NCBI RefSeq assembly: GCF_002706795.1
Contig: NZ_CP017705.1
Coordinates: forward strand, 248,001-312,000
Direction of reading: 5' to 3'
Source of the DNA: Brevibacillus laterosporus DSM 25
GTDB lineage: Bacteria > Bacillota > Bacilli > Brevibacillales > Brevibacillaceae
Length of the DNA: 64,000 nucleotides
In this document: positions 34,894-40,424 of the stretch, piece by piece
How the letters are laid out: every line of letters begins with the position of its first letter
How positions within the stretch are numbered: position 1 is the stretch's first letter
Notes under the pieces: model-generated
What the model saw: only the letters and a program-made list of their open reading frames with translations
Database searches by the model: none
Told to the model about the DNA's origin: nothing
Program-made: the position numbers and the translations under genes

Positions 34894-35288
34894 TTTCTAT
34901 ATTCACCTCATAAAATGCTGTTTTTTTCTACTACCATCCAGATATTATAGCATATTTGTCCTTTGAGAATAAAAGGAAAAAGTTCTCTAGGAGTACCTCC
35001 GATTGGTGATACTTGCCGTTCATTTCAAGATAAGGCTCACTTTTCGATATTTGTTTGAGACTTCATCCCTCGATTGTAAAGTCAGCTCTATATAGAGAGG
35101 TTACACAAAGAATGGTATACGCGAAAAAGAGCCCTTCTTGGTTAAACACAAGAAAAGCTCTTAATCAAAGCAGGTGTACTACGTCAAAAGATCATTTCAC
35201 TTGAACACGGAAAATACTATGCCCCGTACGTACTTGCCCATACACTGACGCAAGTTTTTGGTTGCCTCAGCAAGGAGCTGTTTCACTT
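34894..35288. other. Intergenic region between miaB and the FhuF-like gene
   Basis: A terminator at 35122-35163 serves the FhuF-like gene. The rest shows no coding features. Confidence 0.5.
35122..35163 (-). terminator. Terminator for the FhuF-like gene
   Basis: On the minus strand a 14-bp stem AAGAGCTTTTCTTG / CAAGAAGGGCTCTT (two wobbles) is followed by TTTTT. Confidence 0.75.
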
Positions 35289-36595: not shown

Positions 36596-36985
36596 ATGTC
36601 GACATTTGGTCAACGATTACAGAAATCTAGAAAAAAAGCAAAATTAACGCAAGAACAAGTGGCCAATAAACTCGGACTTGACTACTCCACTATCTCCAAA
36701 TATGAGAATGATCACTCGCAACCCGATAATGATACTCTTATAGCACTAGCAGATCTCTATTTTGTTACGGTAGATTATCTTCTCGGTCGATCAGGTGAAC
36801 AAGCAGATCACGATCTCTCTTTAGTGGATGAGTACCTACCTAAGGAAAAATTAGAAAAATTAACTCCAAAACAAATGGAAAAGATTAACGATTTTTTATC
36901 CTTACCGGAAGACATCCAAATGAATATCGGTACAATGATTGAAGCGGCTGTTGAAATCGTAAAAAACAAAAACCGTCCTGATTAG
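36596..36985 (+). CDS. XRE-family transcriptional regulator
   Basis: 129 residues. The N-terminal HTH (KLTQEQVANKLGLDYSTISKYENDHSQPD) is followed by LADLYFVTVDYLLGR and a helical, Lys-rich C-terminus (LTPKQMEKINDFLSLPEDIQ). GGGGTGAG precedes the ATG. Four copies of an inverted repeat lie upstream, one over the promoter, so it is probably an autorepressor (inference). It lies between the FhuF-like gene and a small convergent gene, not far from the agr-like operon; whether it controls that operon is unknown. Confidence 0.88.
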   Translation: MSTFGQRLQKSRKKAKLTQEQVANKLGLDYSTISKYENDHSQPDNDTLIALADLYFVTVDYLLGRSGEQADHDLSLVDEYLPKEKLEKLTPKQMEKINDFLSLPEDIQMNIGTMIEAAVEIVKNKNRPD

Positions 36986-37149
36986 TAATCGAACTGATTA
37001 TGGCGTTTTTTCGCATCTTCAATAATTTTCTCTATAAAACAAATAATGGAATTTATACTATAGTCTTTATTTTCGATTAAGTAGAGTTCGGCTAATTCAA
37101 CGGCTTTCATTTTGGTATAATCTGTGAGTTTTACCGCTTTTATCTCCAT
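36982..37149 (-). CDS. 55-residue protein of unknown function
   Basis: ATG at 37149 after GTAGGTG gives 55 residues: EIKAVKLTDYTKMKAVELAE, then LYLIENKDYSINSIICFIEK and a basic tail. Its TAA overlaps the XRE stop tail-to-tail by 3-4 bp. Predicted mostly helical with no membrane segment. No family recognised. Length, Shine-Dalgarno and tight convergent packing support a real gene; conservation would have to decide. Confidence 0.6.
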   Translation of the reverse strand: MEIKAVKLTDYTKMKAVELAELYLIENKDYSINSIICFIEKIIEDAKKRHNQFDY

Positions 37150-37297
37150 TTTTTTCACCTACTTTAAAATTCTTTGCTTCTAAAAATTTATCATTAAATT
37201 ATAGAATTTTTTGTCGAAAAATGAAGATAAAGCCTGTCTGTTCTACCCCCTTCAATTTTTCTTTACATTCAGTAAAAACAAATGTATAATTATATGC

Positions 37298-37340
37298 CAA
37301 AAAAGAAAGAATCATCCATTTAATCTGGATGATTCTTTCT
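37298..37340 (-). terminator. Terminator of the agr-like operon
   Basis: GAAAGAATCATCCA pairs exactly with TGGATGATTCTTTC, followed on the minus strand by TTTTTT. The LytTR gene stop lies in the loop, so the stem also encodes the last residues. Confidence 0.93.
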
Positions 37341-37694
37341 TTTCAGATGTTTAACTAATTCATACTTAGACCTAGAAACTGTTGTATAAGAACCATCGTC
37401 GAAGTAAGCTCTGATGAACAACGCATTCTCCACTACATAAGTAATGTTTTCGAGATTGACAACATTTACAGCATCTAATGAAACAAAACCGTATTTCCCC
37501 CAAGAAGCGCGAATCCCTTCTAAGGTAGTCACTCCGAGAAACACACCTTTATTAGTATGAAAACGTAAAATGCTAGCTGAATTCTTTTTTGGTCTGAAGA
37601 GATCTACATAATTAACCTCTTCCACTCCAAATTCTACAAAATCTGACTCATCGTACTTCCTTTCGATTCTAATCCCTGTTAACCTTGGTTTCAT
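37320..37694 (-). CDS. Stand-alone LytTR DNA-binding regulator of the agr-like operon
   Basis: 124 residues covering only a LytTR domain (about residues 20-118): YVDLFRPKKNSASILRFHTNKG, FVSLDAVNVVNLENITYVVE and YTTVSRSKYELVKHL. No receiver domain or phosphorylatable Asp precedes it, unlike AgrA. Its ATG overlaps the AgrD-like stop (ATGA), so translation is coupled. Free LytTR proteins paired with a membrane protein are known from streptococcal LytTR regulatory systems (HdrR/HdrM), where the membrane protein inhibits the regulator; the multi-TM protein here may play that part (inference). Confidence 0.85.
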   Translation of the reverse strand: MKPRLTGIRIERKYDESDFVEFGVEEVNYVDLFRPKKNSASILRFHTNKGVFLGVTTLEGIRASWGKYGFVSLDAVNVVNLENITYVVENALFIRAYFDDGSYTTVSRSKYELVKHLKRKNHPD

Positions 37695-37825
37695 TTTGCT
37701 TCACTTTGCTTTGTTAGTTCTTCTGGCACGACTGGACTACCGATACTAGCTTTGAAGGAAACAACAAAGGCCCTAGCCACAGCGGTAAGCATAACCGAAG
37801 TAGTTTCTGCTATAAGTTTTTTCAT
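37691..37825 (-). CDS. agrD: AgrD-like cyclic autoinducer precursor without cysteine
   Basis: 44 residues. An amphipathic N-terminus (MKKLIAETTSVMLTAVARAF), a core VVSFKASI, and the conserved acidic C-terminal signature GSPVVPEELTKQ matching VPKELTQ of Staphylococcus AgrD. There is no cysteine anywhere, so a thiolactone cannot form. Ser23 (VVSFKASI) would allow a Ser lactone, as in the serine-lactone autoinducers of Enterococcus faecalis (GBAP) and Staphylococcus intermedius. GGGGGGTGAG lies upstream. Start and stop both overlap the neighbours by 4 bp (ATGA). The mature peptide ends are inferred. Confidence 0.85.
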   Translation of the reverse strand: MKKLIAETTSVMLTAVARAFVVSFKASIGSPVVPEELTKQSEAK

Positions 37826-38346
37826 TTGATACTCACCCCCCTTTTTGGAATTAATAACAACGATTGAATAAAGAAAGATAATGCTATTATAGGAGAGCCG
37901 AAGACGAAATTCGTGCTTACGATTAAAACAGAGCTTAATTTTAAGATCAGCACTTTTCGAGGTACGGTCAGATTTTCATATGTACTATTAGGAGCAAGAC
38001 AGAAAACTAGAATAACACTGATAGCTGTTAGTAGATATACAACAATATAGTTTACAGGAATATGTGGAACTACTGCAATAATTGCGGTAGTTACGATGAC
38101 ACACTGATCTAAGGATTTTAGATGATAGCCCCCCGAAAAAAAACGTAGGGCCACAAAAGACATCAATGCTATAAAGCTATCCTGTAAACTATCTGTCAAA
38201 ATTCCGATTAAAAGCAAAAAGAAACAAATAAAAAAGAAATTAAGTAAAATAGAAAGAGCGTATGATAACACAGCTACGCTATTCGTACGCTCTGGACTTG
38301 CATTTTTTATTTTGATAGACATAGCTTCAGATAATCTTTCAATCAA
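37822..38346 (-). CDS. agrB: AgrB-like membrane endopeptidase
   Basis: 174 residues with several membrane segments and the AgrB active-site region RFFSGGYHLKSLDQC, whose His and Cys form the cysteine-protease pair that cuts and cyclises AgrD. TTG at 38346 follows AGGAGGG, itself inside the end of the upstream gene (8-bp overlap). Its stop overlaps the agrD start by 4 bp. The catalytic residues are intact, so processing should be possible even with a Ser-containing substrate. Confidence 0.92.
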   Translation of the reverse strand: MIERLSEAMSIKIKNASPERTNSVAVLSYALSILLNFFFICFFLLLIGILTDSLQDSFIALMSFVALRFFSGGYHLKSLDQCVIVTTAIIAVVPHIPVNYIVVYLLTAISVILVFCLAPNSTYENLTVPRKVLILKLSSVLIVSTNFVFGSPIIALSFFIQSLLLIPKRGVSIK

Positions 38347-39010
38347 TAATTTTGTCCCTCCTATATAACCAGCGAAGTAAAAGTAACAGAGGGGCCAAAA
38401 TAGGCAATATCAACACCCACATATCGCCTTTAAAAATAAAAATCCAATAAGCATTAGCAGAAATAGTTAATATCCCTAGCACTAATCCACAAATGATTCT
38501 TATCTTTAAAGCGTCTAGCTTTCCTTTTTGGTATAGATCATGGGGTGGTTGCATAATGAAGGAAAACCCAAAATTAAACATACCAATGAGCCAACCTATC
38601 AGCAAAACGGTCACATCGGTGATAAGTTGAATCAAGAAAGTTCCCCACTCTACAAGACTTTTACCATCACTTAAGGTCACCCATCCAAAAGATAGAAGAA
38701 CAGGATAAATAACAAATTGTATCCCTATGTAACTTAGATAACCAATTGCAGTAATTAAGGCTGATTCATATACTCTTATCTTAAACAAAAGTCTAAAAAA
38801 CACTACAATCAGAAAAAATTGTGCCCCAACATCAATCTGGTCTACTTCTAGTACAACTCGATTTACAAATGATGTTATGGACAATGCAGTAGCCATGATT
38901 GAGAAGTCCCTCAAATACATAGTTACTGGTAGCCTAAATGCTTTGAAGGTTAAAAATAAAATGGTAAATGAATCAATGAATCCAAACAATACATACAAAA
39001 AACTTTTCAT
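38339..39010 (-). CDS. Multi-TM protein heading the agr-like operon (kinase-less sensor or inhibitor)
   Basis: 223 residues with about six to seven hydrophobic segments (VLFGFIDSFTILFLTF, FFLIVVFFRLLF, ALITAIGYLSYIGIQFVIY, LITDVTVLLIGWLIGMF, IICGLVLGILTISA, WVLILPILAPLLLLL). It looks like the N-terminal peptide-sensing domain of AgrC-type kinases. However, it ends in a short basic tail (RWLYRRDKIID) with no DHp or ATPase domain and no kinase elsewhere in the operon. AGGGG precedes the ATG. Overlap of 8 bp with agrB indicates coupling. Role as receptor or as a LytTR-sequestering membrane protein is inferred. Confidence 0.75.
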   Translation of the reverse strand: MKSFLYVLFGFIDSFTILFLTFKAFRLPVTMYLRDFSIMATALSITSFVNRVVLEVDQIDVGAQFFLIVVFFRLLFKIRVYESALITAIGYLSYIGIQFVIYPVLLSFGWVTLSDGKSLVEWGTFLIQLITDVTVLLIGWLIGMFNFGFSFIMQPPHDLYQKGKLDALKIRIICGLVLGILTISANAYWIFIFKGDMWVLILPILAPLLLLLRWLYRRDKIID

Positions 39011-39077
39011 AATATATCCCCTATTTAGCCAAGATCAAAATGGACTGACCCAGGTTAATGAGACATTGAAAAAACAC

Positions 39078-39935
39078 CTATGCTACCTGTTTTCCATACT
39101 CGTATGGGGACAGGTAGTTTAATTTTTCCTGAATTCGTTCCTGATTGTAAAAACAGATGTAATTTTCTACTTTTTGTAATACCATTAGATTTGTTAGGAA
39201 CTCTCTCTTCGGAGAGGCGAATTCTTCCGACTTTAGCGAGGAGTGGAAGGATTCAATGACAGCATTATCATGGCAATTTCCCTTACGGGACATGCTCGTG
39301 GTAATGCTGTTTTCTTTTGCTTTATTTTGAAAAGCGTATGAGGTATAAACTGAACCTTGGTCACTATGGAGAAGGACACCTCGCGCGTCTCTAGTTTTCG
39401 TGGCTTGTTCAAGCGTCTCTAGAACGAGAGAAACATCTTGTCTGTCACTTATTCGGTAAGCAATGATCTCGTTGTTATATAGATCCATTATCGAAGATAA
39501 GTACAACATGCTTTGACCGTAAGGTAAATACGTAATATCCGTTACCCACTTTTCATTTGGCTTTAAAGCTATAAATTCCCGGTTCAGCTTGTTTGAAACA
39601 ATCATTTTACTCTCGCCACTACTAAACGTCTTGCGCTTTACTTTTACACGACATTGTAAATTTTTCCTTTGCATAACCCTCTGCACTGTTTTACGATTCA
39701 CTTTTTTATTATAAATACGACCTAGTAAAGCAGTTATCTTGCGATGACCAAAACGATAGTGATACTTCAAGCAGAGTTGTTCAATTAGGTATTCAAGTTC
39801 TGTACTTGTGTTTTGAAACTTCGCTTTCCAGCGATAATACGTTGCTCGTGGTACAGCAAACAATTTTAGTATCTCCGTAATAGTAAACCGATCTTTAAAG
39901 CTCTCTACAACGTCAATTAGGCTCGATTTTTTCAC
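39078..39935 (-). CDS. IS3-family transposase OrfB (DDE integrase)
   Basis: 285 residues. An HTH_21-like N-terminus (YHYRFGHRKITALLGR) and an rve core with DDE residues in VTDITYLPYG, LHSDQGSVYTS and NAVIESFHSSLKSE, then YNQERIQEKLNYLSPYEY. It starts at GTG overlapping the OrfA stop by 4 bp (GTGA); a fused OrfAB could arise by -1 frameshifting in this overlap, as is usual in the family. Confidence 0.95.
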   Translation of the reverse strand: MKKSSLIDVVESFKDRFTITEILKLFAVPRATYYRWKAKFQNTSTELEYLIEQLCLKYHYRFGHRKITALLGRIYNKKVNRKTVQRVMQRKNLQCRVKVKRKTFSSGESKMIVSNKLNREFIALKPNEKWVTDITYLPYGQSMLYLSSIMDLYNNEIIAYRISDRQDVSLVLETLEQATKTRDARGVLLHSDQGSVYTSYAFQNKAKENSITTSMSRKGNCHDNAVIESFHSSLKSEEFASPKREFLTNLMVLQKVENYICFYNQERIQEKLNYLSPYEYGKQVA

Positions 39936-40240
39936 CTCCTTTGAAATTCCTGATACTTTTTTAGGACTTCTATCTGCAACTCTAATTGACGAATTCTCAG
40001 GTCTTTGGTAGCTATCTCGTCTAGCTGATCTTGTCCGTATTTTCCATACATATATTGTTTGCCTACCTGTTGAGCAAACCGATACGTTTCTCCATTACGA
40101 AACCACTTCATCCATGTCTTTATCTGAGATTTATCCTTGATACCAAGTTCATCCATAATCTGTTTATTCGTATAACCCTCTTGCTTCATCTTTACGACTT
40201 GCCACTTCACCTCTTCTGGATAAGAAACTCTTGTACCCAT
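39932..40240 (-). CDS. IS3-family transposase OrfA (DNA-binding)
   Basis: 102 residues. HTH region YPEEVKWQVVKMKQEGYTNKQIMDELGIKD, then a leucine-zipper-like heptad (DLRIRQLELQIEVLKKY). ATG at 40240 follows GGGAGGTG; the seven codons upstream are not needed. Confidence 0.93.
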   Translation of the reverse strand: MGTRVSYPEEVKWQVVKMKQEGYTNKQIMDELGIKDKSQIKTWMKWFRNGETYRFAQQVGKQYMYGKYGQDQLDEIATKDLRIRQLELQIEVLKKYQEFQRR

Positions 40241-40424
40241 GAAAGAAGCACCTCCCATCAAATCATATTGTTTAATACGATTCAGGAGGTGCTTTTTCCT
40301 TGTCTCAATTTACTGGGTCACTTCAAAACGATGTAGGTGTTTTTGTACTCACGACCATGCAATAGACTATCTCTTAGAGAGTGTAGCTCGCTCATAACTT
40401 CTAGATGAAAAATGATCTCCTCGC

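Follow-up and report, generated by a model that had tools for sequence, protein, structure and literature searches.

Organization of the four-gene operon

The window analysed here, a 64,000-nucleotide stretch of the Brevibacillus laterosporus DSM 25 chromosome, contains on its minus strand a compact operon of the agr quorum-sensing type. The first gene (38339..39010) encodes a 223-residue membrane protein with seven helices, referred to here as the sensor and characterized by AlphaFold2 (AF2) modelling, HHalign and its match to phrog_15604. It is followed by the genes of the AgrB peptidase (37822..38346, 174 residues, TTG start codon, PF04647), of a 44-residue AgrD-like signal precursor (37691..37825, phrog_36013) and of a stand-alone, receiver-less LytTR protein of 124 residues (37320..37694), identified through PF04397, AF2/Foldseek and phrog_15081. 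Consecutive genes overlap by 8, 4 and 4 bp, and both coordinates and overlaps agree with the arrangement described in an initial annotation made from the sequence alone. The terminator that it had placed at the end of the operon corresponds to an intrinsic-terminator-like hairpin on the same strand (37300..37344), found by RNA folding, whose stem overlaps the 3′ end of the LytTR gene. Its folding energy is −25.9 kcal/mol (z −6.5) and none of 200 shuffled sequences folded equally well; a scan by consensus listed no terminator.

At the level of sequence the operon holds an intact AgrB, an AgrD with the P-x-E-L tail, an AgrC-homologous sensor without a kinase and a LytTR protein without a receiver. 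No Pfam kinase family was matched, and no kinase-like open reading frame (ORF) was seen between positions 35000 and 41500, either in the ORF list or in a Pfam scan of the seven main ORFs, which excluded an oxidoreductase-like ORF of 402 residues. With neither kinase nor receiver in the operon, phosphotransfer within it is impossible, as had been proposed. We consider it probable that the operon is a phosphate-free agr quorum-sensing module, in which binding of the peptide to the remnant of AgrC would control LytTR directly. If this is true, the textbook two-component agr system can operate without phosphotransfer, in a form that is mobile and widespread in Paenibacillaceae. The module shares with agr of Staphylococcus aureus and its relatives the AgrB peptidase, the P-x-E-L tail of AgrD, an AgrC-derived sensor, the LytTR output and the single operon. 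It differs in the absence of histidine kinase and receiver, in the position of the sensor gene, which comes first, and, in this branch, in a Lys at position −9 of AgrD that replaces the ring-forming Cys or Ser at −10.

The peptidase is readily recognized (PF04647, E 4.1e-17). Its residues Arg68, Gly73, His75 and Cys82, which include the His/Cys site noted earlier as intact, are present in the window copy and in all of 174 distinct AgrB sequences compared, a non-random set from which repeated sequences were removed and in which many loci had been fetched with the sensor as query. The score of the LytTR protein against PF04397 (E 3.5e-4, 21.2 bits) lies slightly below the curated cut-off of 22.6. 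Its AF2 model (predicted local distance difference test, pLDDT, 88.2) gave as top PDB matches 3d6w (E 1.5e-4) and AgrA 4g4k (4.3e-4), both of them LytTR domains. It is thus the kind of output domain that AgrA has, but its 124 residues comprise LytTR only, without the receiver of AgrA. PHROGs contains the families of the module without useful names, the LytTR family phrog_15081 being labelled 'peptidase'. A tandem double LytTR of about 228–278 residues takes the place of the single domain at 18 loci (L011, L027, L031–L041 and L044–L048; 17 IMG/VR contigs and one plasmid), which raises the question of a built-in dimer for direct repeats.

The 174 AgrB sequences were sorted by their neighbours, a locus being called kinase-less when the neighbouring sensor match had at most 330 residues in the fetched stretch (about 3–16 kb), so that a distant kinase could escape. 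By this definition the sensor is short in 134 cases, a long neighbour, regarded as AgrC, is present in 36, and the remaining 4 have neither. The same search in a less biased subset, consisting of 65 distinct AgrB from 70 stretches chosen among the better-scoring Paenibacillaceae matches, returned 52 with a short sensor, 11 with a long neighbour and 2 with neither; a LytTR-only neighbour is present in 43 of these 52 short-sensor loci. An AgrB match was found in 127 of 197 Paenibacillaceae genomes and in 37 of 39 genomes of the window's own family.

Kinase status changes only once on the AgrB tree (FastTree, 174 rows, 170 of them with a status), and the kinase-less side received a support of 98/96 in a mixture-model analysis of 81 chosen rows. 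The loss of the kinase therefore looks like one old event, which was then followed by spread onto mobile elements. It could be argued that the operon is a non-functional, decayed agr remnant, given that kinase and receiver are gone and that the window copy has an IS3-family element 30 bp upstream. This explanation is scarcely credible in view of the short-sensor frames, which are open in 134 loci, the AgrB catalytic residues conserved in 174 of 174 sequences, the tight gene overlaps and the recurrence of the module on phages.

The sensor and its proposed coupling to LytTR

The AF2 model of the sensor (pLDDT 87.3) consists of seven long helices that fill the whole model. No Pfam or NCBIfam family was matched at E values up to 1, and the DHp and HATPase domains of a histidine kinase core are absent; in PHROGs the protein matches phrog_15604 (E 4e-61), of the category moron, auxiliary metabolic gene and host takeover. 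Comparison with HHalign against the membrane domain of Brevibacillaceae AgrC gave 97.0% (E 7.9e-11) for the Ser/Cys-type short sensors and 94.5% (E 8.1e-8) for the Lys-type ones, with 0.3–0.4% for a membrane-protein control (AgrB). The AgrC profile was built from the N-terminal 240 residues of 20 long proteins, in two of which (L140, L143), those scanned, HATPase_c was confirmed.

A sensor search across the class Bacilli, with matches in 33 of 398 genomes, included three weak ones in a single genus (L081–L083) that fall within proteins of 406–450 residues encoded directly upstream of AgrB. The C-terminal halves of these long proteins gave no HATPase match, and hence they look like degenerate kinases. 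Short sensors align with them at 98.2–98.9%, a value to be read with the fact that these proteins were picked by their match. L099, the only one of these loci scanned further, has a receiver-LytTR gene downstream (Response_reg 3.4e-14, LytTR 9.7e-11).

As judged by these profile comparisons, the sensor is an AgrC membrane domain without the kinase core. This homology makes the module a truncated agr and not a hybrid, and the initial annotation, which had seen in the layout a combination of AgrBD with a LytTR Regulatory System (LRS), has to be modified on this point, as the LRS features fit just partly. The same alignment speaks against the membrane protein as an inhibitor of the HdrM/BrsM kind grafted onto AgrBD. 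What the operon does share with the HdrRM/BrsRM systems, in the passages of PMC6193735 that describe them, is the pairing of a LytTR protein that has no receiver with a membrane protein, and those systems are placed outside known phosphosignalling. A true LRS, with AgrBD adjacent by chance, is nevertheless very unlikely. The gene order is opposite, with the membrane gene first and LytTR last, whereas the LRS regulator gene is described as lying upstream; no excess was seen of the direct repeats about 12 bp apart that an LRS has just upstream of its promoter, and the membrane protein is AgrC-derived and accompanied by a dedicated AgrBD peptide. Reversed 'LRS-like' operons are reported in Bacteroides in the same passages.

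The relationship to AgrC also bears on a further explanation, in which the AgrBD product would be a peptide of antimicrobial or interfering action, immunity would come from the membrane protein and LytTR would do no more than autoregulate the operon. Phage cargo genes are often weapons, and the category of phrog_15604 would suit such a role. This explanation is unlikely, since the supposed immunity protein is a homologue of AgrC sensors and since sensor, AgrB and LytTR stay together across Paenibacillaceae and phages. Two tandem sensor paralogues share one AgrB-AgrD pair in phages Emery and Davies and in genome G004 (L014 6268–7669, L015 6265–7669 and L005, respectively).

A closer inspection of 33 sensor sequences showed a charge pattern with a mean of 2.5, 2.6 and 3.5 Lys or Arg residues in loops 1-2, 3-4 and 5-6 and of 2.3 at the C terminus, against 0.4–0.6 in the remaining loops. 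This pattern places loops 1-2, 3-4 and 5-6 and the C terminus inside. The invariant residues of the sensor, Gly148 and Pro155-Pro156-His157, lie in loop 5-6 and would thus be cytoplasmic, and this motif is a candidate for the place where LytTR docks. The sequences are best read as a system in which the membrane protein would act directly on LytTR to control it.

Several observations weigh against this interpretation. Short sensors align with the Paenibacillaceae kinase group at just 1.0 and 15.4%, and a convincing PDB structure match for the sensor model was not found. No LytTR match is present in the fetched stretch at 25 of the 134 short-sensor loci. LytTR direct repeats with 12-bp spacing are not enriched upstream or downstream; in the 134 upstream stretches no excess was seen at a period of 20–22 bp with at least 8/9 matching, a threshold that weaker repeats could escape, and the upstream region of the window copy is itself cut by the IS3 element. 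At one locus (L086) a short kinase-less sensor, AgrB and a Ser-type AgrD accompany a full receiver-LytTR regulator, with a recombinase-like ORF nearby, so that some short sensors may still serve phosphorylatable partners. This locus may represent a transition from agr to the kinase-free form.

Phosphotransfer could also enter from outside, if the short sensor formed a mixed dimer in trans with an AgrC-type kinase of the host and LytTR competed, in a dominant-negative manner, for the sites of AgrA. Another genome of the genus (G002) does have an agr locus (L004) whose AgrC contains a HATPase domain. We regard this arrangement as highly improbable here, as AgrB was matched only twice in the window's genome, each time beside a short sensor, and the LytTR family search listed one other place in it.

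The lysine-bearing signal precursor

The AgrD-like peptide (phrog_36013, E 5.3e-5) adjoins AgrB and carries the P-x-E-L tail expected of an agr precursor. Its core reads K-A-S-I/G-S-P-V-V-P-E-E-L, the slash marking the putative cut. Counting from the Pro of P-x-E-L, the Lys occupies position −9 and is preceded by Phe at −10, the ring position, where Cys or Ser is the usual nucleophile. Of the 174 cases, 75 have such a nucleophile there (43 Ser, 32 Cys). Peptides were assigned to classes by eye at 31 loci and for one AgrB of L197, and 6 of the 174 were left unclassed.

In all 71 peptides of the Lys class, among which identical cores were counted repeatedly, the Lys falls at −9 in a single register; the next two positions vary, the third is mostly aliphatic and the fourth is Gly or His. 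Residue −10 is variable (Glu 13, Met 12, Arg 11, Phe 10, Leu 9, Ala 8, others 8). What is new here is this set of 71 AgrD peptides with Lys at −9, 70 of them without Cys or Ser at −10. By clade, the Lys is found in 50 of 52 rows of K_I (AgrD went unrecognised in the remaining two) and in 21 of 21 rows of K_II. Among the matches listed in the open-access literature, no title or abstract concerned a kinase-less agr-LytTR lineage or a natural autoinducing peptide with a Lys ring.

The known autoinducing peptide is a 16-membered thiolactone, formed as the AgrD Cys attacks an AgrB thioester, according to the relevant passages of PMC4979651. By simple arithmetic, ring closure between a Lys side chain and the −6 residue would give 7 + 6 + 3 = 16 ring atoms, the size of that thiolactone. 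A Lys lactam ring is what we infer for the K_I and K_II peptides from their sequences. If real, it would be a new and probably hydrolysis-stable natural signal peptide made by a small peptidase, of use in chemistry and in engineered circuits.

A linear product would also fit the Lys-class peptides, and this objection to the ring deserves weight. Here the system would be the same, the AgrB thioester would be hydrolysed and the conserved Lys would serve as a recognition residue for AgrB or the sensor. Lys is less nucleophilic at neutral pH, and at −10 of the Lys class Ser is never found and Cys only once (0/71 and 1/71), which would agree with such a signal. On the other hand, the Lys is invariant within a variable core, in a register that matches the 16-atom ring. 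In a separate, kinase-bearing Brevibacillaceae lineage with long AgrC (L135–L157), moreover, Lys and Cys interchange at one AgrD column (17 Lys, 5 Cys). On balance, the linear signal remains a serious contender with a probability somewhat short of even.

Two further observations speak against the lactam as drawn. The Lys of the kinase-bearing lineage occupies the Cys position itself, and the ring there would have 19 members, not 16, which weakens the argument from ring size and strengthens the idea of a nucleophile swap. In addition, the single Cys at −10, directly before Lys −9, belongs to the Lys-class peptide of an IMG/VR contig (L030). This peptide, which is without the P-x-E-L tail, is possibly a transitional or double-nucleophile form. 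In an approximately unbiased (AU) test, K_I and K_II as a single clade were not rejected (p 0.458), and two gains of Lys are therefore supported rather than three.

Asn occupies position 120 of AgrB in 54 of 71 sequences of the Lys class, in none of 75 of the Ser/Cys class and in none of 22 of the Brevibacillaceae lineage. Given this restriction, AgrB may be adapted to the K_I and K_II peptides, although shared descent would give the same picture.

In the mechanism proposed for the phosphate-free module, AgrB would cut AgrD after the aliphatic residue at −6 (between Ile and Gly in the window peptide, K-A-S-I/G-S-P) through a thioester with Cys82. The Lys four residues from the cut would then close a 16-atom lactam ring, or alternatively the product would be linear. 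Once exported, the peptide would bind the seven-helix sensor, whose cytoplasmic loop 5-6 (Gly148 and the PPH motif at 155–157) would hold LytTR; peptide binding would release LytTR, or the reverse. LytTR would then regulate its own operon and neighbouring genes.

Relatives on mobile elements and surroundings of the window copy

The four-gene set recurs with its order unchanged in a second full copy within the window's genome (L003), in another B. laterosporus locus (L009, with a sensor 91% identical to that of the window), on three Paenibacillus plasmids and in the four phages examined. This recurrence indicates that the arrangement in the window is not due to chance. The 13-kb surroundings of L003 show matches of 89.8–93.5%, over 25–48% of their length, to phages Jimmer1/2, Osiris, Powder, Davies and Abouo and contain a phage-type integrase and several phage-type regulators; this copy sits in a prophage. 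A protein search with the sensor returned 3 Paenibacillus records among 72,556 plasmids and 8 records among 50,697 phages, some of them duplicate deposits, and the same 8 hold AgrB. The phages concerned have B. laterosporus (Abouo, Emery, Davies) or Paenibacillus larvae (Harrison, Paisley) as host. In IMG/VR, 32 loci were returned for the sensor, with an AgrB match in 32 and a LytTR match in 30.

In Abouo, Emery, Davies and Harrison, the phages examined, the module lies in the lysogeny-control region near integrase, XRE and repressor genes, a placement that holds for the phage copies and not for the window copy. With such neighbours, the module would probably signal the density of infection or of lysogens to the lysis-lysogeny decision.

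Peptide communication in the lysogeny-control region of temperate phages is also the hallmark of arbitrium (AimR/AimP) of Bacillus phages, which uses an imported linear peptide and a cytoplasmic RRNPP receptor. The phage copies of the module differ from it in having a seven-helix membrane sensor and an AgrB-made peptide, and no AimR family match was obtained for the four window genes. The module would represent a second, directly testable peptide-communication system for temperate phages beside arbitrium. The full combination can be put forward only as a tentative and somewhat doubtful proposal: an AgrB-made, 16-membered Lys lactam (K-x-x-[ILV]) would act through a kinase-less AgrC on a bare LytTR by contact, defining a new agr class that phages would use in an arbitrium-like manner for lysis or lysogeny, with Cys/Ser replaced by Lys at least twice, one of these replacements in the kinase-bearing Brevibacillaceae agr.

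Whether the subtype had been described before, a point left open in the initial annotation, can be answered in part. AgrB, AgrD and HATPase-less membrane proteins of phages Davies, Emery and Abouo were noted in 2014 by Hargreaves et al. (PMC3901668), and these three cassettes are direct relatives of the window module. The relevant passages of that account do not mention the phage LytTR gene, the Lys core, the plasmid copies or the wide kinase-less lineage. They also describe agr3 of the Clostridioides difficile phage phiCDHM1, in which AgrC has a HATPase domain and a response regulator was not found; both sets of agr genes reside in temperate phages, the module here having LytTR and no kinase. 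A Brevibacillus genome paper mentions clusters of agrB and cyclic lactone autoinducer, in its relevant passages without kinase-less or Lys detail (PMC9867215). The Lys-bearing peptide without ring Cys/Ser, the link to phages and the IS3 element were all absent from the initial annotation, and we infer that its agr and LRS hybrid gives way to a truncated, phosphate-free, mobile agr with a Lys-core peptide, in which signal transfer and ring chemistry would be as proposed above.

The window copy, which is related to the phage modules, is chromosomal and has FhuF-like and oxidoreductase-like neighbours in common with L009. Downstream of the operon lie an ORF of 58 residues (36982..37158, minus strand), which has a counterpart beside the L009 copy and gave no match in PHROGs, and, convergent with the operon, the gene of an XRE-type, phage-repressor-like regulator (36596..36985, plus strand); XRE genes are also neighbours of the phage copies. 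The IS3-family element (about 39041..40324, minus strand) is flanked by AAAA at both ends and is missing from the corresponding, empty site of L009. Located 30 bp 5′ of the sensor start codon, it has probably severed the native promoter of the window copy, whose expression is probably altered and which may be silent or driven by the element.

In Jimmer1 (L220 2428–4685) and Osiris (L221), a different cassette is found in the place of the agr module, followed by the same downstream regulators by annotation; that of Jimmer1 encodes lipoprotein-like and secreted-looking proteins plus an XRE gene. An inverted repeat of the type CTATAATA-CCA-TATTATAG, a possible operator, is conserved upstream of phage-type copies (L023 7814, L018 1458, L017 7860 and L003 5073) and was not found at the window copy. 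In several phage copies (L013, L014, L015 and L018), as judged from the upstream alignment alone, the sensor gene seems to be preceded by a small conserved leader ORF that stops close to its start codon.

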